A stretch of DNA of 29,795 bases. Source: a virus. The notes beneath the pieces were generated by a model. The model saw only the letters and a program-made list of their open reading frames with translations. It was not told the DNA's origin and searched no databases. The stretch's first letter is position 1. Each line of letters begins with the position of its first letter. Of the stretch, positions 1 through 28,879 are shown piece by piece. Position numbers and translations under genes: made by a program. Where the stretch lies: the IMG/VR virus record IMGVR_UViG_3300037795_000338, positions 1 through 29,795 of that record; one strand, 5' to 3'.

Positions 1-3000
1 ATGCAAGAGTTGATTGATAAAGGATTGCTTGAGCAGGTAAAAGATATATCAATTTTTAACGAAAAATACGTTGCTACTACATCTCCTGATGATATGTTAG
101 TGGGTAATATATTTATAAATGGTGATTTGAAAGCGGAAGGTAATGGAGGTGTTTTCTTTGTTACTAAATTTGGTGATGTTTGGGCCTCTTCCAATAAAAT
201 GATAGCTGATCAAATAGCTAAGAGAATAAATAAATCTTTAGGGATTAATGGAGGGAAAGGATATTTAGTTTTGGTAAAAGGTACTGATGCTAAATTAATA
301 AGCAGTCCTCAAGGTGCTTCTTCAAGTTTAAAAATAGTAGAAGCATTAGCTTCTGATGGGTTAATCTCTCCTTCTGATTTTAGAAAATCTATAATTTCTG
401 CATTACAAAATAACAAGGATACAAAAGCAAAAATAAACCTCTCAGTAAAATTAAGTTCTGAAGATATGATATCAGCAGTAGATTCATTGTTTGATGATGT
501 AAGTAAATCTTCATTTGACAACAGAGGAACTCTGTTAAAATCAATAGTAGTTGAACTTGGTAAAACAGAATCAATAAAAAACAATAATAAAAAAATTATT
601 GAATTCTTAGGTGGTGACACTTCTAAAAATATTGGTTGGTCAGCAACTTCAAAAAACACAAACACAAGTCAATCAGCAATAGATTTGATAGCTGGTGCTT
701 CTAGAGAAGAATTAACAAAAGGATTGAATGGTGGAGACATATATGCAGTAATAGAGGTTGATGATGAGGTTATAGTTAGTAAAGATTCTCACCAAAGTTA
801 TCCCTTTCATATCAAACAAAAAAATGGAAAATCACCTAAATTAATACTTCTTGAAAATAGACAGAATGGACGTGAAGTGATGGTGTCTTCATCTAATGAA
901 AGTGTTGATGAATTAGGTAAAAGCTTCGATGGTAAGGTACTAGGAAGAGCATCAAACGGATATGGAGATGGATATGTTGATACTGAAAAGTCTTCTAAAT
1001 CAAAAAAACAAATAAAGAAACAAAGAACTGATAAAGCTTCTGAAAAACTTCAGCAATTATTTAAAAGAGACGACATACCATTAACATTACAAGAAGCAAA
1101 AGAAATAGTGAATGAGGTTATAGATTGGACTACTTGGTATGATGGGCTTGCTACATATGTAGATGATATATTTGGAGAATACTCTGAAGATATATTATCT
1201 ATGCTTCCTTTAGCTTCTATGGCAGCTAATAGTGCTGCTACTGTAGGATTGTCTATAAATAATGCAGAGAAAATATACAGAGGAGAAAAGCCATCTGGAG
1301 TAGCTGAATATTATGGATATGTTACAGATTTTTTAGAAGGTAAAGGTATAAAGTCAGATAAAATGTCTGAATTCTTTAAAGCTCTAACTGGAAATAAGGA
1401 TGCTATAGCAGTAGATATGCATGTTTACTCTATAATAATGGGTAAGAATCCTAATAAAAAACAAGTAAATCCAAACAATAAACAAGAATTTGATAAGGCA
1501 AAAGAATTTGTCAGAACATTAGCTACTGAATTAGATTTAGCACCAAGAGAAGTACAAGCTGCTTTATGGGCTGCTAATATATTGAGAACAGGTGGGAGGC
1601 CTGACAGTTATGAACAATACTTTAAAAAACAACTAGATGGAAAAGGACTTAAACAAAGAATCGAAACCTGGAGGAACGAAGGCTATAAGCCATTTTCTGA
1701 AATTCGTAAAGAAAAAGAAGGATCTAAATCAAAAAAACAAATAAAGAAACAAAAGTCAACTATCAAAATATACGGAGAAGACTTTACTGAAATTTTTGAA
1801 AAATATGGAATTCCTTTTGCATATCTTTCTGATATTAAAAATAGAAATATACCAGAATTCCTTGGAGGAGAAAATAAAAAGATAACTGAATTAAGAGAAA
1901 ATATTTTAAACTCAATAAATATATCTTTAGAATATTGGAAAAATGATTTATCAAAACAATCAAAAAAAATATATGATTCAGATAGCAGTTTAGAATTTAG
2001 AAAGTCATTAATAAACAAAAAATCTGATAGAATACTATCACTTGAAAAACTTAAATCTAATGTTGAAAATAATTTGCTTTCTTTATCAGATATTGAAATA
2101 GGTAATGTTGCTGAAGGATCTAAATTCAAAAAACAAAAAGGTGAAAAACTAACAGAACCAGTAGCTGGAAACAAGTTGTTCAATGAGCCTTTGAAGGATG
2201 CCGAAAAGATAGCTCAATCTTACATGCAATCTATTGGTATGGAATACGTGCCAGTAGAAAAGATAACAAAGCTAGATGAGGACCTATCTAAAAGAATATC
2301 TGACGCTTACGATCAGATGGAAAACAATCCAAACGATCCAGAGGTAAAGGCCGCTTATGAGGCGATGGCCAAGGAAACATTAGACCAGTATGACGCTATA
2401 TTATCAAAAGGATACAAGGTTGAGCTAAATAATAACGATCTATACTCTTCTTCTGAGGACATGATAAAGGATCTTAGAGATAATAGCAAGATGAATGTAT
2501 TCCCTACAGAGTCTGGATTTGGTGATGAGCCTATTACTGACGAACAGAGATCTGAAAACTTACTGTTAAAAGACTCTGGTAGAAAAGATATAAATGGTGA
2601 GACTTTATTGATCAATGACGTATTTAGATTTGTACATGATTTCTTTGGTCATGCTAAACTAGGAAATAGTTTTGGGCCAATAGGAGAAGAAAATGCATGG
2701 AGGGTTCACTCTGAGATGTATTCACCAGAAGCTAAAAAAGCGATGACATCTGAGACCAGAGGACAAAATAGTTTTGTCAATTTTAGCGGTGTTAATGACG
2801 CTGTATTTAAAAAGAGAGACAAGGCAAGAGAGCTACGAAAGGAAGGGAAGATAGATCAGGCCAACCAGATGGTTGAAGAGGTTTATAATGAGATGAAGTT
2901 TGCTGATCAAAAGATTGGTCTGTTGCCTAGCTTTGCTATCGAAGAAGGAGCTCCGTCTAAGATTAAATTCCAGAAGACTACAACTAAACAGGAGGCCATT

Positions 3001-21276: not shown

Positions 21277-21492
21277 TTACATTTCAATTCCATACTCTAT
21301 TGCTCTCATTTCATCTATGTCGCCATCATTGGTTAGTATCCCGACCTCAATTAATCGGGATGCCATCCGTCCGTAATGACCTTGTAACGACCATGCGTTA
21401 CCATTTTTTACAAGTTCAGCGAACATGTATACCATCTCTGCACCATCAAGCATTCCGCTCTCGTATGCGATTATTCTGTCTATCGTGTCCAT
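21277..21492 (-). CDS. Conserved small phage/mobile-element protein
   Basis: 71 residues: MDTIDRIIAYESGMLDGAE, then NAWSLQGHYGRMASRLIEVG. The DTIDRIIAYE opening and SLQGHYGR motif are shared by a widespread small protein family of phages and mobile elements with no known function (recognised, not searched). The start is fixed by the conserved leader ending at 21493. It ends three bases before the next ATG. Confidence 0.82.
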   Translation of the reverse strand: MDTIDRIIAYESGMLDGAEMVYMFAELVKNGNAWSLQGHYGRMASRLIEVGILTNDGDIDEMRAIEYGIEM

Positions 21493-21514
21493 AAGTTCTA
21501 GGTTTTATAGGTTA
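21493..21514 (-). promoter_or_regulatory. Conserved leader, type 1 (AAACCTAGAACTT-ATG)
   Basis: The minus strand reads TAACCTATAAAACCTAGAAC then TT and the start codon. The upstream gene's last codons and stop (AAC CTA TAA) are part of it. No ribozyme here. Confidence 0.7.
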
Positions 21515-21642
21515 CAAAAAAAATCTTCCTCAACAAATATTGTCGAGCTGAATTTATCTTTTAATTGGTCGATTGTCATACCATCTCTGTCGGATAATTC
21601 AAGCAACTCGTCTTGGGTCAATTGGTCTATTGTTCTGTACAT
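21505..21642 (-). CDS. Small acidic protein of 45 residues
   Basis: ATG 21642, TAA 21505-21507. It starts MYRTIDQLTQDELLELSDRD and ends VEEDFFCNL. The TIDQL/LKDKF pattern looks like a short helical pair. It lies exactly between two copies of the conserved leader, and its last three codons form part of the next leader. Function unknown. Confidence 0.65.
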   Translation of the reverse strand: MYRTIDQLTQDELLELSDRDGMTIDQLKDKFSSTIFVEEDFFCNL

Positions 21643-21665
21643 GGTTCTAGGTTTTAAAATGTTAG
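21643..21665 (-). promoter_or_regulatory. Conserved leader, type 1, no ribozyme
   Basis: Minus strand CTAACATTTTAAAACCTAGA followed by ACC and ATG. The TAA is the stop of the upstream gene, so stop and leader are fused. Confidence 0.65.
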
Positions 21666-21878
21666 TTTATCAAATTCTTGGTACATGTCTGTATACTCCA
21701 AAGGGAATCTATCTTTCAATGCTTGGAGTATCATGTAATTGTCGTAGTAGTCCTCTCCATCTCTTTCTGCATTTACGATTGGTTGGATGACCTCAGCGAT
21801 TTGGTCGTCTTCTAAGGTAGTCAATAGGTAGAAGTCCTCTTCTGACCATGCTGATGTGTTGATTCTAATTACTCTCAT
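21654..21878 (-). CDS. Small phage protein, unknown function
   Basis: 74 residues: MRVIRINTSAWSEEDFYLLT, then acidic and aromatic (EDYYDNYMILQALKDRFPLEYTDMYQEF). Similar small proteins occur in Bacteroidota phages and conjugative elements as hypotheticals. It is the first gene after hammerhead A; predicted cleavage would leave 24 nt before its ATG. Confidence 0.78.
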   Translation of the reverse strand: MRVIRINTSAWSEEDFYLLTTLEDDQIAEVIQPIVNAERDGEDYYDNYMILQALKDRFPLEYTDMYQEFDKLTF

Positions 21879-21901
21879 AAGTTCTAGGTTTTATTGGTTA
21901 A
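21879..21901 (-). promoter_or_regulatory. Conserved leader, type 1, released by hammerhead A
   Basis: Minus strand TTAACCAATAAAACCTAGAA then CTT-ATG. TTAACC is stem I of the ribozyme; the rest would be the free 5' leader after cleavage. Confidence 0.75.
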
Positions 21902-21952
21902 GACAGCACCTTGTGAGTGCTGTTTCGATTATTTAAATCTCGTCAGTCAACC
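21896..21952 (-). ncRNA. Hammerhead ribozyme A (type I)
   Basis: On the minus strand: GGTTGA (stem I), CTGACGA core (21946-21940), hairpin II GATT/AATC with loop TAAAT, GAAA (21926-21923), hairpin III of 7 bp including A15.1-U16.1 with loop TCACAAG, G-U-C at the cleavage position (C17 = 21902), then TTAACC closing stem I (one G.U pair). All invariant core residues are present. The upstream gene's stop codon TGA (21945-21943) is inside the core. Cleavage is predicted between 21902 and 21901. Confidence 0.85.
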
Positions 21953-22203
21953 TTGCAATCACCAATGAATAGCTTGCCATCTTTGAATGATGGTTGATAC
22001 TCACTATGAATATCTGCTGTCATATCATGTGTATCATGAAACCCACTGTAGCTAGCTAACTTTAATTCATGAGATACAACTATCACCTCTGCCTCGTCAC
22101 CATAGAATGGATGCTCGAAGAATTCGATTTCTTGACCTTGGTCGTTAATCATTTTGCCGTAGCTTGTAGGCTCTTGAGCCATTAATTTTTTGTAGTTTAA
22201 CAT
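21943..22203 (-). CDS. Conserved small phage protein, unknown function
   Basis: 86 residues: MLNYKKLMAQEPTSYGKMIN, then GQEIEFFEHPFYGDEAEVIVV, a strand-rich protein ending GKLFIGDCKVD. I recognise the KLMAQEPTSYGKM...EFFEHP pattern from small proteins of Bacteroidota phages; no function known. Its last codon and stop are read through hammerhead A (stem I and core), so ribosomes finishing this gene would unfold the ribozyme. Confidence 0.8.
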   Translation of the reverse strand: MLNYKKLMAQEPTSYGKMINDQGQEIEFFEHPFYGDEAEVIVVSHELKLASYSGFHDTHDMTADIHSEYQPSFKDGKLFIGDCKVD

Positions 22204-22226
22204 AAGTTCTAGGTTTTTATTGGTTA
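22204..22226 (-). promoter_or_regulatory. Conserved leader, type 1, no ribozyme
   Basis: Minus strand TAACCAATAAAAACCTAGAA then CTT-ATG. It overlaps the last codons (AAC CAA TAA) of the upstream gene. Confidence 0.7.
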
Positions 22227-22441
22227 TTAAATTGTTCGTTAGTTCCCTTATCGTGTATTATTGTTCGTAGTTCAAGGAAGTAGTTTATGTCATAGTCATT
22301 TGCTGTCATAAGCAATTGCCTGAGCATTTGGTCTTCCATACCAACACCTCTTAATATAAATTCCATTGTTTCTCCATCAACGTCCATTTCTCTTAAGTAC
22401 TCGATGATGTGATTTGCCGTTTGCATTTGATTGTTGTCCAT
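22217..22441 (-). CDS. Small phage protein, unknown function
   Basis: 74 residues, helical: MDNNQMQTANHIIEYLREMD, then GETMEFILRGVGMEDQMLRQLL. A short conserved-looking phage protein; no motif. Start fixed by the leader at 22442-22465, just downstream of hammerhead B. Its C-terminal NNQ and stop coincide with the next leader, suggesting that the leader's sequence constrains the protein end. Confidence 0.78.
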   Translation of the reverse strand: MDNNQMQTANHIIEYLREMDVDGETMEFILRGVGMEDQMLRQLLMTANDYDINYFLELRTIIHDKGTNEQFNNQ

Positions 22442-22465
22442 AATTTCTAGGTTTTAATTGGTTAA
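22442..22465 (-). promoter_or_regulatory. Conserved leader, type 1, released by hammerhead B
   Basis: Minus strand TTAACCAATTAAAACCTAGA then AATT-ATG, starting exactly at the predicted cleavage point. Confidence 0.75.
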
Positions 22466-22516
22466 GACGGCACATCTCTATGCCGTTTCGGATATTAAAT
22501 CCATCGTCAGTTAACC
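22460..22516 (-). ncRNA. Hammerhead ribozyme B (type I, one extra base)
   Basis: GGTTAA, CTGACGA, one extra T, hairpin II GGAT/ATCC, GAAA, hairpin III ACGGCA/TGCCGT with an 8-nt loop, GUC, then TTAACC. Stem I is a perfect 6 bp. The T between core and stem II departs from consensus and might slow it. The stop TAA of the upstream gene (22513-22511) is the last half of the 5' stem I strand. Cleavage predicted between 22466 and 22465. Confidence 0.75.
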
Positions 22517-22738
22517 TTGGTGAAACATGCTCTTCTTGAATCTAATCAAGTGACCCTCCTCGTACTTGAGTAGATCATCTAGCTTGTCTCTGTCAACAGA
22601 TATTATTCCGTGTATCGGATGCTTGATGTCGTTGATGCCAACAAACTGCTTGTTACGAATCAATTGCTCTCTGATTGTCAATTGTCTGATAGTGCCTTCC
22701 GTCTTGTGGAAGCCTACGTTGTTCATTCTCTTTTCCAT
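22511..22738 (-). CDS. Small basic phage protein, unknown function
   Basis: 75 residues: MEKRMNNVGFHKTEGTIRQL, then REQLIRNKQFVGINDIKHP, basic overall. M5 is an alternative start, but TAGAAATT-ATG before M1 resembles the conserved leader end, and the TAG is the upstream stop. The gene ends GGT TAA inside stem I of hammerhead B. Confidence 0.75.
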   Translation of the reverse strand: MEKRMNNVGFHKTEGTIRQLTIREQLIRNKQFVGINDIKHPIHGIISVDRDKLDDLLKYEEGHLIRFKKSMFHQG

Positions 22739-22743
22739 AATTT

Positions 22744-22884
22744 CTATTTGTTATATACCTCGTCTAATTGGTAGCCGTAACGCTTCTGCATGTAAGCTAC
22801 ATAGTTACTGAAATGTTGTTCGCTATCAAATTCCTTCGTGATGATTATCTGCTCTCTACGATGGTTAAAAAATACTAGTATCAT
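22744..22884 (-). CDS. Small basic protein of 46 residues
   Basis: ATG 22884 overlaps the upstream TGA as ATGA; TAG at 22744-22746 is five bases from the next ATG. The product starts MILVFFNHRREQIIITKEFD and has YVAYMQKRYGYQL near its end. Looks like a real small soluble protein; no family recognised. Confidence 0.65.
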   Translation of the reverse strand: MILVFFNHRREQIIITKEFDSEQHFSNYVAYMQKRYGYQLDEVYNK

Positions 22885-22991
22885 CGTGATGTGAATGGAA
22901 TTAATAATCTCTTAGTCTTAACTAATGTTCCGTTTAGAAAGAATCCCCATACCTCGAAGTTCCCCTCAATCTTTAAAATTTTTGTACTCAT
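22881..22991 (-). CDS. Small protein of 36 residues
   Basis: ATG 22991, TGA 22881-22883. The product starts MSTKILKIEGNFEVWGFFLN and has a basic stretch KTKRLL, suggesting two or three beta strands. Its start is preceded by a type 2 leader released by hammerhead C. ATGA overlap with the next gene. Function unknown. Confidence 0.6.
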   Translation of the reverse strand: MSTKILKIEGNFEVWGFFLNGTLVKTKRLLIPFTSR

Positions 22992-23014
22992 GGCTATTAA
23001 ATTTAATTGGTTAA
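22992..23014 (-). promoter_or_regulatory. Conserved leader, type 2, released by hammerhead C
   Basis: Minus strand TTAACCAATTAAATTTAATA then GCC-ATG. It shares TTAACCAAT with type 1 leaders but differs near the start codon. Confidence 0.75.
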
Positions 23015-23060
23015 TACGGCCCGAAGGCCGTTTCGTCTAGCTAAGACTCATCAGTTAACC
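23009..23060 (-). ncRNA. Hammerhead ribozyme C (type I)
   Basis: GGTTAA, CTGATGA, hairpin II GTCT/AGAC with loop TAGCT, GAAA, hairpin III ACGGCC/GGCCGT with tetraloop TTCG, A at the cleavage position (GUA, 23015), then TTAACC. A complete consensus match in 52 nt. The upstream membrane gene ends TAG with its G as the first base of stem I (23060). Cleavage predicted between 23015 and 23014. Confidence 0.87.
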
Positions 23061-23173
23061 TATATGTATATCGGTGGAATGTTTTCCGATACAAGTTGAT
23101 ACACGGCATATCCAATACCGAAAAACAAGCTAACTACAAGACTGCTTGTCCATAATACAAATACTACTTTCAT
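23060..23173 (-). CDS. 37-residue single-span membrane protein
   Basis: ATG 23173, TAG 23060-23062. The product starts MKVVFVLWTSSLVVSLFFGI and is hydrophobic to about residue 28, then SENIPPIYI: one transmembrane helix or a signal anchor. It is bracketed by hammerheads D and C, so it would become a monocistronic mRNA if both cleave. Function unknown. Confidence 0.65.
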   Translation of the reverse strand: MKVVFVLWTSSLVVSLFFGIGYAVYQLVSENIPPIYI

Positions 23174-23195
23174 GGTTATAAATTTAATTGGTTAA
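23174..23195 (-). promoter_or_regulatory. Conserved leader, type 2, released by hammerhead D
   Basis: Minus strand TTAACCAATTAAATTTATAA then CC-ATG, nearly identical to the leaders at 22992-23014 and 23884-23904. Confidence 0.75.
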
Positions 23196-23239
23196 GATGC
23201 CTCACGGCATTTCGGTCATTCAGACCTCATCAGTTAACC
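23190..23239 (-). ncRNA. Hammerhead ribozyme D (type I)
   Basis: GGTTAA, CTGATGA, hairpin II GGTC/GACC with loop TGAAT, GAAA, hairpin III ATGCC/GGCAT with loop GTGA, C at the cleavage position (AUC, 23196), then TTAACC. All core residues match in 50 nt. Stem sequences differ from A-C while pairing is kept, the covariation expected of a functional RNA. Cleavage predicted between 23196 and 23195. Confidence 0.88.
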
Positions 23240-23254
23240 TTCATTTGCTTTCAT
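23234..23254 (-). CDS. Six-codon mini-ORF between leader and hammerhead D
   Basis: After a type 1 leader the strand reads ATG AAA GCA AAT GAA GGT TAA, encoding MKANEG. Its TAA is the last part of the 5' strand of stem I, just as in gene 22511-22738. It could be a regulatory leader peptide that lets a ribosome reach the ribozyme, or a cassette whose gene was lost. Too short to call a protein gene. Confidence 0.3.
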   Translation of the reverse strand: MKANEG

Positions 23255-23270
23255 AAGTTCTAGGTTTTAA
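23255..23270 (-). promoter_or_regulatory. Conserved leader, type 1, before the mini-ORF
   Basis: Minus strand TTAAAACCTAGAACTT then ATG. The TAA is the stop of gene 23267-23578. Confidence 0.65.
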
Positions 23271-23578
23271 CGCTCTTCTTTGAAAAATATATCGGCATCA
23301 TATTCACCAATAATATCAATTACGGTTTCATCAGATGTGTTTATCTGTAAACCACCCTCACTATTGTCTTCAAGACCATATACTAATAAACATGGTTTAG
23401 CATCTTTATCATCATCCCAAAAGAAATTGATATCCCATTCAACACCTTTTGATGTAGTGATAGAGTTCCAACTATCAGATAAATCACCTTCCGTGATATC
23501 TACTGTGAACATTTCTCCTTGGAATTTGAATGTGATTAACTTTGTTTCACAATTCAATGTTGCCGTGTTGTTTCTCAT
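23267..23578 (-). CDS. Acidic phage protein, unknown function
   Basis: 103 residues, acidic and strand-rich: MRNNTATLNCETKLITFKFQ, then DLSDSWNSITTSKGVEWDINFFWDDD and a Glu/Asp-rich end. Looks like a soluble small-domain protein; no recognised family. Start set by the leader at 23579-23602. Confidence 0.75.
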   Translation of the reverse strand: MRNNTATLNCETKLITFKFQGEMFTVDITEGDLSDSWNSITTSKGVEWDINFFWDDDKDAKPCLLVYGLEDNSEGGLQINTSDETVIDIIGEYDADIFFKEER

Positions 23579-23602
23579 TTGTTCTAAGGTTTTATAGGTT
23601 AA
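23579..23602 (-). promoter_or_regulatory. Conserved leader, type 1 variant, no ribozyme
   Basis: Minus strand TTTAACCTATAAAACCTTAG then AACAA-ATG. TAA is the stop of the upstream gene. One extra T in CCTTAGAA versus the other copies. Confidence 0.65.
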
Positions 23603-23883
23603 ACTGAATAAATTGTAAATTGGTCGAAGTCGTCTATTCTATCTGCATACTTAAAATCAATATGGCTTAATTTTTTTCCACTTCGTTTTATTATATCATT
23701 AACGACTTTTTCAAGGTTAGTTATCGTACCATCAAAACCTGCAAACCCATCCAAGTCGGAAATGTTTGTACCATCTTGAAACTCGTAAATAAATAACTCA
23801 TAATGTATTCCATCGTAGTCTTTTGGTATTCTGTCAATGCATTTTTTAATTAGTGCCTTGTGTTCTGCTGATATTTTGTTCAT
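23599..23883 (-). CDS. Small protein, unknown function
   Basis: 94 residues: MNKISAEHKALIKKCIDRIP, an acidic middle (SDLDGFAGFDGT) and a tail with FKYADRIDDFDQFTIYSV. No motif. It is the first clear gene of the leftward operon after the 900-bp non-coding region and has a type 2 leader. Confidence 0.75.
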   Translation of the reverse strand: MNKISAEHKALIKKCIDRIPKDYDGIHYELFIYEFQDGTNISDLDGFAGFDGTITNLEKVVNDIIKRSGKKLSHIDFKYADRIDDFDQFTIYSV

Positions 23884-23904
23884 GGTTATAAATTTAATTG
23901 GTTA
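23884..23904 (-). promoter_or_regulatory. Conserved leader, type 2, at the operon head
   Basis: Minus strand CTAACCAATTAAATTTATAA then CC-ATG. It is preceded by a structured RNA without a hammerhead core. Confidence 0.7.
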
Positions 23905-23906
23905 GT

Positions 23907-23953
23907 GCCGTGCTGAGTTTCGCTCTCAGTTAATGACTCGCAGTCAACACGGC
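23907..23953 (-). other. Structured leader RNA, possibly a degenerate ribozyme
   Basis: Minus strand GCCGTG pairs with CACGGC, enclosing two hairpins: GACT-GCG-AGTC and CTGAG-AGCGAAA-CTCAG, a three-way junction. It holds CTG-CGA (a hammerhead core lacking one A) and GAAAC, in the position other leaders have a ribozyme, but a hammerhead fold cannot be drawn. Confidence 0.45.
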
Positions 23954-24107
23954 TATAATGTACCTTGCGTAACAAGGCTTTTATCTTTATCTGTAACCTA
24001 CCATGCGTGAAATAGGAGTAGTCTTAATTGCTTTTCAGCTTTGGCTTTTTTGATGTTATCGTAGGCGACGCATGTTCCAAGATGTCAAAGACCGATGTTT
24101 TTTTAAT

Positions 24108-26538: not shown

Positions 26539-26560
26539 CCCTCCAATCGGAGGGTTTTTT
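26539..26560 (+). terminator. Rho-independent terminator CCCTCC-AATC-GGAGGG-T6
   Basis: A 6-bp GC-rich stem with a 4-base loop and six T. It ends the 24848-26533 unit. The T tract doubles as part of the -33 element of the groEL promoter. Confidence 0.88.
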
Positions 26561-26589
26561 GTTTTATATCACTAAATTTGTTATATTTG
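26558..26589 (+). promoter_or_regulatory. Bacteroidota promoter TTTG-N20-TATATTTG for groEL
   Basis: -33 TTTG at 26558-26561 and -7 TATATTTG at 26582-26589, spacing 20, close to the known TTTG-N19-TAnnTTTG. It implies a short leader before ATG 26607. The terminator immediately before it insulates the chaperonin genes. Confidence 0.85.
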
Positions 26590-26606
26590 TGACAAAATAT
26601 AATAAA

Positions 26607-28175
26607 ATGGTAGTAAAACATGTTCATTTAGGTCAAGATGGCCAAAAAAAGCTCAAGAAGGGCATCAAAACAATCGCTGGGGCAGTCAAAAGTACATTAG
26701 GTGCACGAGGACGCACAGTTCTAATCGAGTCAGAGCATCATGTGGGTGGTATAACGGTAACAAAGGACGGTGTGACAGTCGCTAAGTCTATAAACCTGTA
26801 CGATCCGACTGAGAACTTGGCAGTGATAATGATCCGTCAAGCAGCTGAGAAGACAGCCACCGTTGCTGGAGATGGCACAACAACATCCATAGTACTTGCG
26901 GAGGCTCTCATTGACGCATCAGATAAATACTTGTCAGACACTGACAACGTGACTGAGGTGATAAGGGAGATCAACGTACTAACTCAAGACGTTGTAAGTT
27001 ATCTAACAAAAAAGAGTAAAAAGGTTAAGGGTAAAAAGCTAATCGATGTGGCCACTATAAGTGCAAACAACGACAGGGAGATTGGTAAGATGATTGCCAG
27101 TGCTTTCGATGAGGTTGACGTTGTTACCGTTGAGAACAGTATGACAAGCAGCACATATGTTGAGATAATAAAAGGCATGAAGATTGATCGGGGGATGACA
27201 TCTCCTTACTTCATAACAGATCAAAAGAAACAAGAGTGTGTTCTTGACAACCCATACGTATTGATATGCGACCATGAGATCAACAACTTGATATCTATAG
27301 AGAACATATTAAAGCACTGTGTGGTAAACCAAAAGCCACTCCTGATCATCGGCACACTGGGTCAGAACGCCATGAACACATTAAACCTAAACGTATCCAA
27401 GGGGCAGATAAAGGCTTGCAACATACAGCCACCATCATTTGGTTACCGCACTAAAGACTTAATGGAGGACATTGCTGCTGCAACTGGCGGCACATTTTTC
27501 TCTGAGTCTACTGGTGATGACTTGTCTTTAATAACTGTTGCTGACCTAGGTCGATCTAACCGTGTTGTTGTTAGTAAGGGCATGACGGTATTTATGCCAA
27601 ACGCTGATAGGGCTGATTCAATAGACGGTCAGGTATATCAGCTAAAGGAGTCTAGGTCTGAGATGTCATCCAACAAGGAGCTGTTAGACTTCACAAACGA
27701 GCGTATAGCCAATCTATCTGGTGGTGTTGGTGTTATATATGTAGGGGCAATGAGTGACATTGAGCAGAAGGAGAAGAGGGACAGGATAGATGACGCTGTG
27801 TGTGCTGTTACTGCGGCAATAGAGGAGGGGATACTTCCTGGTGGTGGTATAGCACTTTTAGAGGCTAGGTCTTTTGTTTTAAATGGTGACTCAAAGGCTA
27901 TTAAAATATTAAGGGATACAATTATATCTCCATTCAATCAGATAATTTTAAATGCTGGTAAGGACCCAGAGGAGATACTTTCAAACATGCTACCAATAGA
28001 GAACGAGGGCTATGATGTGAAGAACGAACAGTATGGTGACATGATGAAGTTAGGCATCATAGACCCAGCGAAAGTCACCAAGAACGCACTGTTAAACGCT
28101 GTCTCTGTGGCGACCACGATAATGAGCACAAATGCAATAATAACAAATGTAAGAGCAGATGAAAGTATTAAATAA
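26607..28175 (+). CDS. groEL: Phage chaperonin GroEL (Hsp60)
   Basis: 522 residues from ATG 26607 (an earlier in-frame ATG at 26559 lies inside the terminator and promoter). ATP-site residues are present: TKDGVTVAK with D54, GDGTTT at 88-93 with D89, D396 in RIDDAVCA, and PGGG at 411-414, matching E. coli D52, D87, D398 and GGG414-416. It ends NVRADESIK, without the Gly-Met tail of bacterial GroEL, and is diverged elsewhere. It should form a folding chamber for phage structural or replication proteins. It is followed by groES (17-bp overlap), the reverse of the bacterial order. Confidence 0.95.
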   Translation: MVVKHVHLGQDGQKKLKKGIKTIAGAVKSTLGARGRTVLIESEHHVGGITVTKDGVTVAKSINLYDPTENLAVIMIRQAAEKTATVAGDGTTTSIVLAEALIDASDKYLSDTDNVTEVIREINVLTQDVVSYLTKKSKKVKGKKLIDVATISANNDREIGKMIASAFDEVDVVTVENSMTSSTYVEIIKGMKIDRGMTSPYFITDQKKQECVLDNPYVLICDHEINNLISIENILKHCVVNQKPLLIIGTLGQNAMNTLNLNVSKGQIKACNIQPPSFGYRTKDLMEDIAAATGGTFFSESTGDDLSLITVADLGRSNRVVVSKGMTVFMPNADRADSIDGQVYQLKESRSEMSSNKELLDFTNERIANLSGGVGVIYVGAMSDIEQKEKRDRIDDAVCAVTAAIEEGILPGGGIALLEARSFVLNGDSKAIKILRDTIISPFNQIILNAGKDPEEILSNMLPIENEGYDVKNEQYGDMMKLGIIDPAKVTKNALLNAVSVATTIMSTNAIITNVRADESIK

Positions 28176-28419: not shown

Positions 28420-28879
28420 AATTTATTATAGCCTTAGCTAAAGTTTTTTGATGAAATGGGGCGTTCTTACGAAACGCCTTATTTCTTCTTTCTGAAGAAG
28501 GTATTGGTTCTATTCCGTTCAGTTTTTTGTATATACTGTTGATCATTTTTTTGCCCTTATGTGTAAGGTCAAATATCTCTGAGTTCCCCCATCCTCCCTT
28601 TCTCCATGTGTATATAAAACCTCCGTCTATAAGACGGTTAAGTAATTGAGAGTCCCAGGACATAAAGTTTGTTTGCTCTCTTATAACTTTTCTTGTAAAT
28701 AATTTCTCTGAGTACAAGAAGAACATTAGCTCTAACTCTGAGAAAGATTTTAGTTCGTAATGCATTATAGCCCACCTTCTAACTACTGAGAAGTTTTTAA
28801 GATAATTGTCATCGCTGACCCATCCTTGATACCTTTTAGGTTTATACCTAAAATATTTATTTACAATCTTTCGTTTCAT
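28382..28879 (-). CDS. Putative winged-helix DNA-binding protein
   Basis: 165 residues on the strand opposite to its neighbours. Residues about 35-115 read like a winged helix: SFSELELMFFLYSEKLFTRK, then LLNRLIDGGFIYTWRKGG and IFDLTHKGKKMI, as in MarR-type proteins. The rest is basic. It overlaps the 3' end of groES by 38 bp tail to tail and diverges from the gene at 28914. It might regulate the rightward late genes; not shown. Confidence 0.72.
   Translation of the reverse strand: MKRKIVNKYFRYKPKRYQGWVSDDNYLKNFSVVRRWAIMHYELKSFSELELMFFLYSEKLFTRKVIREQTNFMSWDSQLLNRLIDGGFIYTWRKGGWGNSEIFDLTHKGKKMINSIYKKLNGIEPIPSSERRNKAFRKNAPFHQKTLAKAIINFNEEYKQRPSLE

Follow-up and report, generated by a model that had tools for sequence, protein, structure and literature searches.

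Hammerhead ribozymes cleave their own RNA after nucleotide H17, which leaves a 2',3'-cyclic phosphate on the upstream product and a 5'-OH on the downstream one. In insulators of the RiboJ type, the hammerhead sits immediately before a start codon, and cleavage leaves a fixed 5' end. Clusters of hammerheads in prophages flank single genes or short gene blocks, and processing into single-gene mRNAs has been proposed for them (Perreault et al., 2011; PMC3088659). The dataset of that study comprised more than 10,000 hammerhead sequences. A triple array around ardA was described in Agrobacterium, and further arrays in Azorhizobium and Clostridium scindens; three tandem arrangements cleaved in vitro and one triple array, that of Agrobacterium, in E. 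coli (PMC3088659). A review from 2017 again reported hammerheads located close together and flanking small ORFs of unknown function, and called their prokaryotic role open (PMC6155905). According to a paper from 2023, self-cleaving ribozymes cluster near one another and near genes of Mu-like phages.

The window analysed here is the complete 29,795-nt (29.8-kb) virus record IMGVR_UViG_3300037795_000338, whose nearest named relatives are Elemovirus phages; its host is probably flavobacterial. Four hammerhead motifs are arranged in the window around blocks of one, three and two genes. As in the arrays of Perreault et al. (2011), several hammerheads flank single genes or short blocks, both in the window and in related records, and gene-length mRNAs are proposed. 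The window array differs from those arrays in its carrier, a phage near Elemovirus, in its single compact type I form with a 6-bp stem I and a UNAAU loop, and in the overlap of stop codons with the ribozyme. The suggestion in the sequence-only reading that no repeated operon-processing array was on record has to be withdrawn, since clustered arrays and the processing proposal appear in PMC3088659 and are repeated in PMC6155905. What is new here is the subclass, the stop-codon overlap and the cassette turnover, while clustered arrays were already known. The compact subclass, the stop-codon overlap and the turnover are not described in the literature searched, which covered few subscription papers and did not extend to a comparison with the Perreault dataset. 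Our main reading, to which we assign a probability of about 0.82, is that four catalytically competent compact type I hammerheads process a small-gene operon of this Elemovirus-related phage by predicted self-cleavage.

All four motifs lie on the minus strand, the coding strand of the array region, and show the same order of elements: stem I GGTTRA, CTGAYGA, hairpin II, GAAA, hairpin III, the NUH triplet, and TTAACC. Hammerhead A (23190–23239; predicted cut 23196/23195) reads, 5' to 3', GGTTAA CTGATGA GGTC-TGAAT-GACC GAA ATGCC-GTGA-GGCAT C^TTAACC. Hammerhead B (23009–23060; predicted cut 23015/23014) has stem II GTCT-TAGCT-AGAC, stem III ACGGCC-TTCG-GGCCGT, and A at H17. Stem II of hammerhead C (22460–22516; predicted cut 22466/22465), GGAT-TTAAT-ATCC, is preceded by an extra U between A9 and the stem, and stem III is ACGGCAU..AUGUGCCGU. 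Copy C is the least certain of the four; several relatives with other stems also have the extra U, which is therefore probably tolerated. Hammerhead D (21896–21952; predicted cut 21902/21901) has stem I GGTTGA/TTAACC with one G-U pair, stem II GATT-TAAAT-AATC, and stem III ACAGCAC..GTGCTGT. The core CUGANGA, GAAA, and NUH with A15.1–U16.1 is present at every site. The hammerhead is the exact minimum-free-energy fold for each of the four copies (z about −2.9 to −3.4), and the pattern CTGANGA..GAAA..TTAACC gave four matches against 0.01 expected from shuffles. The topology is that of type I, with stem I open-ended and stems II and III closed by loops, as judged from the minimum-energy folds and from covariation in stems I, II, and III. 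Sequence, pattern search, and folds thus bear out the positions, strand, element order, and cut sites that had been proposed from the letters alone.

A search with Rfam at gathering thresholds gave no match anywhere in the window, and no hammerhead was reported across 20 hammerhead-bearing loci. At relaxed thresholds, RAGATH-1-hammerhead (RF03152) matched copy D with 23.7 bits against a cut-off of 56.3, and Hammerhead_1 (RF00163) matched copy B with 18.6 bits, its best score in the window, against a cut-off of 34; by score, the motif falls outside both families. The Rfam check proposed in the sequence-only reading was consequently negative at the gathering thresholds, with sub-threshold matches on copies D and B. 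Hammerhead_1 shares type I topology and the catalytic core with the window motif. RAGATH-1-hammerhead is alike in the core and in a stem II bounded by C-G, whereas the 5' hairpin of that family has no convincing counterpart in the window motif. Because Rfam was blank at its own thresholds, relatives were collected by pattern scans of viral contigs and genomes, and a covariance model, R1, was built from 59 diverse sequences, with the window and its closest relatives left out. R1 found exactly four sites in the window, at 54.8–67.9 bits: A (67.9 bits, E 5e-16), B (61.4 bits, E 3e-14), C (54.8 bits, E 2e-12), and D (59.2 bits, E 1e-13), with rough E-values owing to a short calibration. The next match had 13 bits. 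A model built without the window thus recovers precisely the four sites claimed as hammerheads.

Pattern scans revealed the motif to be common in aquatic phage contigs, and the following figures refer to the matches listed. Stem I has 6 bp in 201 of 212 distinct sequences and is flanked by a conserved A (95% before, 94% after). Stem II has 4 bp and a UNAAU loop, and stem III is variable. Pairing of stem I is kept across many different sequences, with full compensatory change. Because pairing was a filter criterion for the covariation alignment, its 99.9% of paired cells prove little alone. An unfiltered test was made with raw matches to the core and stem II only: among the matches listed, stem I was found in 136 of 161 distinct ones, always with 6 bp, in comparison with a mean of 11 and a maximum of 21 when 5' flanks were swapped between loci. 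For a subset of 140 raw matches, stem I, stem III, and the NUH triplet had played no part in the choice. Both stems were present in 119 of these (again among the matches listed), stem I had 6 bp in all 119, and the NUH rule held in 119/119, with U at 16.1 and C or A, never G, at 17. This fits a catalytic demand; a mere structural element would have no such need. As far as sequences can tell, the NUH conservation is a signature of selected self-cleavage.

The A residues conserved on either side of stem I, together with the UNAAU loop, may hint at the usual tertiary contact between stems I and II; the alignment showed no pairing partner for the loop. Some copies seemed by eye to allow loop II to pair as a pseudoknot with the 3' flank of stem I (UUAAU with AUUAA). 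This option was dropped: the window has the same flank beside differing loops, and the copies of Elemovirus and pelagiphages lack that flank. Very long insertions in stem III, with 65–129 nt between GAAA and the cleavage triplet, occur in four loci (L143, L163, L191, and L248). A terminator-like stem III (AAAGGCCCC..GGGGCUUUUAU) was seen in eleven loci (L019, L020, L061, L062, L066, L067, L071, L077, L095, L096, and L107), where it could possibly couple termination with cleavage.

The motif was also identified in cultured phages. R1 matched the Flavobacterium phages elemoB and elemoC (53 bits) and elemoF (43 bits, with a damaged stem II), as well as the pelagiphages HTVC019P, HTVC131P, HTVC201P, and Jormungand (50–52 bits); the same match in elemoA was obtained by BLAST only. 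These cultured Elemovirus and Pelagibacter phages have one copy each, and none of the named Elemovirus and pelagiphage records annotates a hammerhead. A near match in Erwinia phage Alexandra failed the R1 model. Only one of 149 genomes of one flavobacterial family, namely the seed genome, contained the motif, which is therefore a phage element and not a host element. Other features of the window include a phage GroEL-type chaperonin (26559–28175, plus strand; phrog_5725, Pfam Cpn60_TCP1), a tRNA-Val with anticodon TAC (28440–28527, plus strand), and a 2252-codon ORF at the contig start (1–6759, plus strand) with local matches only (DUF7178, phrog_3170).

All genes of the array are small and encoded on the minus strand. 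The array opens with a 94-aa ORF (23599–23883), followed by a 103-aa ORF (23267–23578), neither of a known family, and by a mini-ORF of six codons (M K A N E G stop; 23234–23254), whose TAA lies within stem I of hammerhead A. Between A and B is a hydrophobic 37-aa ORF (23060–23173) with homologues in L072 and other loci; its TAG stop takes the first G of stem I of hammerhead B. The next block includes a 36-aa ORF (22881–22991), which in relatives is often the gene next downstream of a hammerhead, a 46-aa ORF (22744–22884) joined to it by an ATGA overlap, and a 75-aa ORF (22511–22738), whose TAA stop is within stem I of hammerhead C and which is directly followed by a hammerhead in many relatives too. 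Hammerheads C and D enclose a 74-aa ORF (22217–22441) and an 86-aa ORF (21943–22203; phrog_11770), and the TGA stop of the latter coincides with the catalytic-core UGA of hammerhead D. Downstream of D is another 74-aa ORF (21654–21878) with an Elemovirus homologue. The ORF lengths agree with the division of the message proposed earlier (94 + 103 and the mini-ORF; 37; 36 + 46 + 75; 74 + 86; 74 and onward). No informative family was found for the array proteins, and no tRNAs near the array.

This placement recurs among the listed sites located away from contig ends. A same-strand ORF ends near the ribozyme in 187 of 195 cases and starts after it in 157. Both an ORF end upstream and an ORF start downstream were found at 150/195 sites on the strand of the ribozyme versus 35 on the opposite strand. 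Counted from the first base of stem I, the end of the upstream stop codon falls at offset 0, 1, 6, or 10 in 111 of 187 cases, which corresponds to TAA or TGA just before stem I, TAG with its first G, TAA at its end, and the UGA of the core. The downstream start codon lies at a median of 26 nt 3' of the predicted cut.

The leaders after the window ribozymes are nearly identical. A further, non-hammerhead structured element precedes the first array gene (23900–23954, minus strand) and ends in the same CTAACCAATTAAATTTATAACCATG leader. It folds strongly and is kept in L311, L286, and other loci, where the same CTAACC leader follows; its conserved form is GCCGUG..GACU[GCG/AUG]AGUC..CUGAGAGCGAAACUCAG..CACGGC. 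We rejected this element as a fifth, degenerate hammerhead, as it has no correct core and the version of the relatives differs mainly in a loop. The leader AACCTAGAACTTATG is common to several genes without a hammerhead (window 21480–22220 and 23260–23600, minus strand) and is possibly a general translation leader of the window phage.

The array is not special to the window phage. Among 46 records in which the motif is known to occur, 30 carry two to five copies, an upper estimate because the records were partly chosen for having several copies. The results for strand and spacing are independent of this choice: mixed-strand copies were found in none of the 30 multi-copy records, and 49 of 50 gaps between successive copies are shorter than 2 kb (median 619 nt). 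One locus, L008, has a twister-P3 ribozyme (174–241, plus strand; RF03154, 42.5 bits) about 370 nt upstream of a same-strand hammerhead (609–662, plus strand), that is, two ribozyme classes in one array.

The hammerheads occupy the gaps between the small genes of one operon. During transcription, each of them would fold and cut itself after H17. The upstream message would then have its stop codon at the edge of the ribozyme and hairpin III at its 3' end with a 2',3'-cyclic phosphate, while the downstream message would have a 5'-OH end, followed by a short, A-rich leader whose first letters are UUAACCAAU. In this way, the operon RNA would be split into messages of one to three genes. The structure, the conserved catalytic positions, the gene context, and the same-strand recurrence are observed; self-cleavage, its operation during infection, and a possible effect on message stability or translation are inferred. 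The earlier proposal of operon processing finds good support in the NUH conservation, the co-directional gene placement, and the same-strand arrays. The cleavage of comparable natural arrays in vitro and in E. coli (PMC3088659) is counted in its favour as well.

Comparison of related contigs, fetched via three array genes, suggests that whole gene blocks are gained and lost at hammerhead sites. R1 gave 71 matches in 57 related loci, some of which are overlapping or near-identical. The window block of hammerhead C, the 74-aa and 86-aa genes, and hammerhead D corresponds in L311 to a single hammerhead, whose upstream side matches C and whose downstream side matches D. The same locus has an extra hammerhead and gene ahead of the 36-aa gene. 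Identical stem III sequences are combined with two to four different stem II sequences; the converse is also seen. These observations, together with the near-identical leaders in the window, would be expected if gene cassettes were exchangeable, with the hammerheads as their natural RNA insulators and as joints for recombination. Any inserted gene would acquire a standard 5' leader and a standard 3' end through cleavage, and swaps could rely on homology among the copies of ribozyme and leader DNA; this idea adds to message processing and does not replace it. We regard it as tentative. No case of recombination between stems II and III emerged from a strict four-combination test, and in the close pair L310 and L329 the mosaic boundary lies inside a gene and not at a ribozyme. 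Moreover, recombination is expected of any repeated sequence, and insulation is putative.

A less probable explanation, which we consider rather unlikely, is that the copies are selfish or passive and spread by gene conversion, cleaving with no selected role for the phage. The copies are clustered and recombining, and one and the same junction between two genes has a hammerhead in L285 and none in L287; given this case and the damaged stem II in Elemovirus F, single copies are dispensable. Passive spread accords poorly, however, with catalytic positions that are strict in 119/119 sites, with full compensatory change in stem I, and with the invariable strand and the fixed position with respect to start and stop codons. 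It is very improbable that the motifs are non-catalytic RNAs resembling hammerheads, such as terminators or protein or ribosome binding sites: some metagenomic copies do have a terminator-like stem III and the motif extends into regions where translation stops and starts, but the NUH rule has no exception where unselected, a terminator has no use for the core nucleotides, and stem III of the window copies lacks a U run.

The role of phage hammerheads has been open since 2011 (PMC3088659, PMC6155905). For the processing reading, the present data supply simple constraints, namely a fixed 6-bp stem I, a stop codon in the ribozyme, a start codon some 26 nt downstream of the cut, and same-strand arrays spaced by genes. 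Annotation based on Rfam overlooks a common phage ribozyme. Since the motif has cultured carriers, i.e. Elemovirus on Flavobacterium sp. BAL314 and pelagiphages HTVC019P, HTVC131P, HTVC201P, and Jormungand, the processing hypothesis is testable in infection. RiboJ-type insulators were engineered from plant satellite RNA, whereas the phage elements are intergenic and overlap the upstream stop codon; the likeness is one of analogy, not of relationship. It is conceivable, if doubtful, that the hammerhead serves these phages as a standard intergenic part, which ends one gene, leads the next, insulates both, and acts as a joint for swaps of accessory genes. If so, it would be a natural counterpart of the engineered ribozyme insulators, in a hammerhead subclass missed by current RNA databases.
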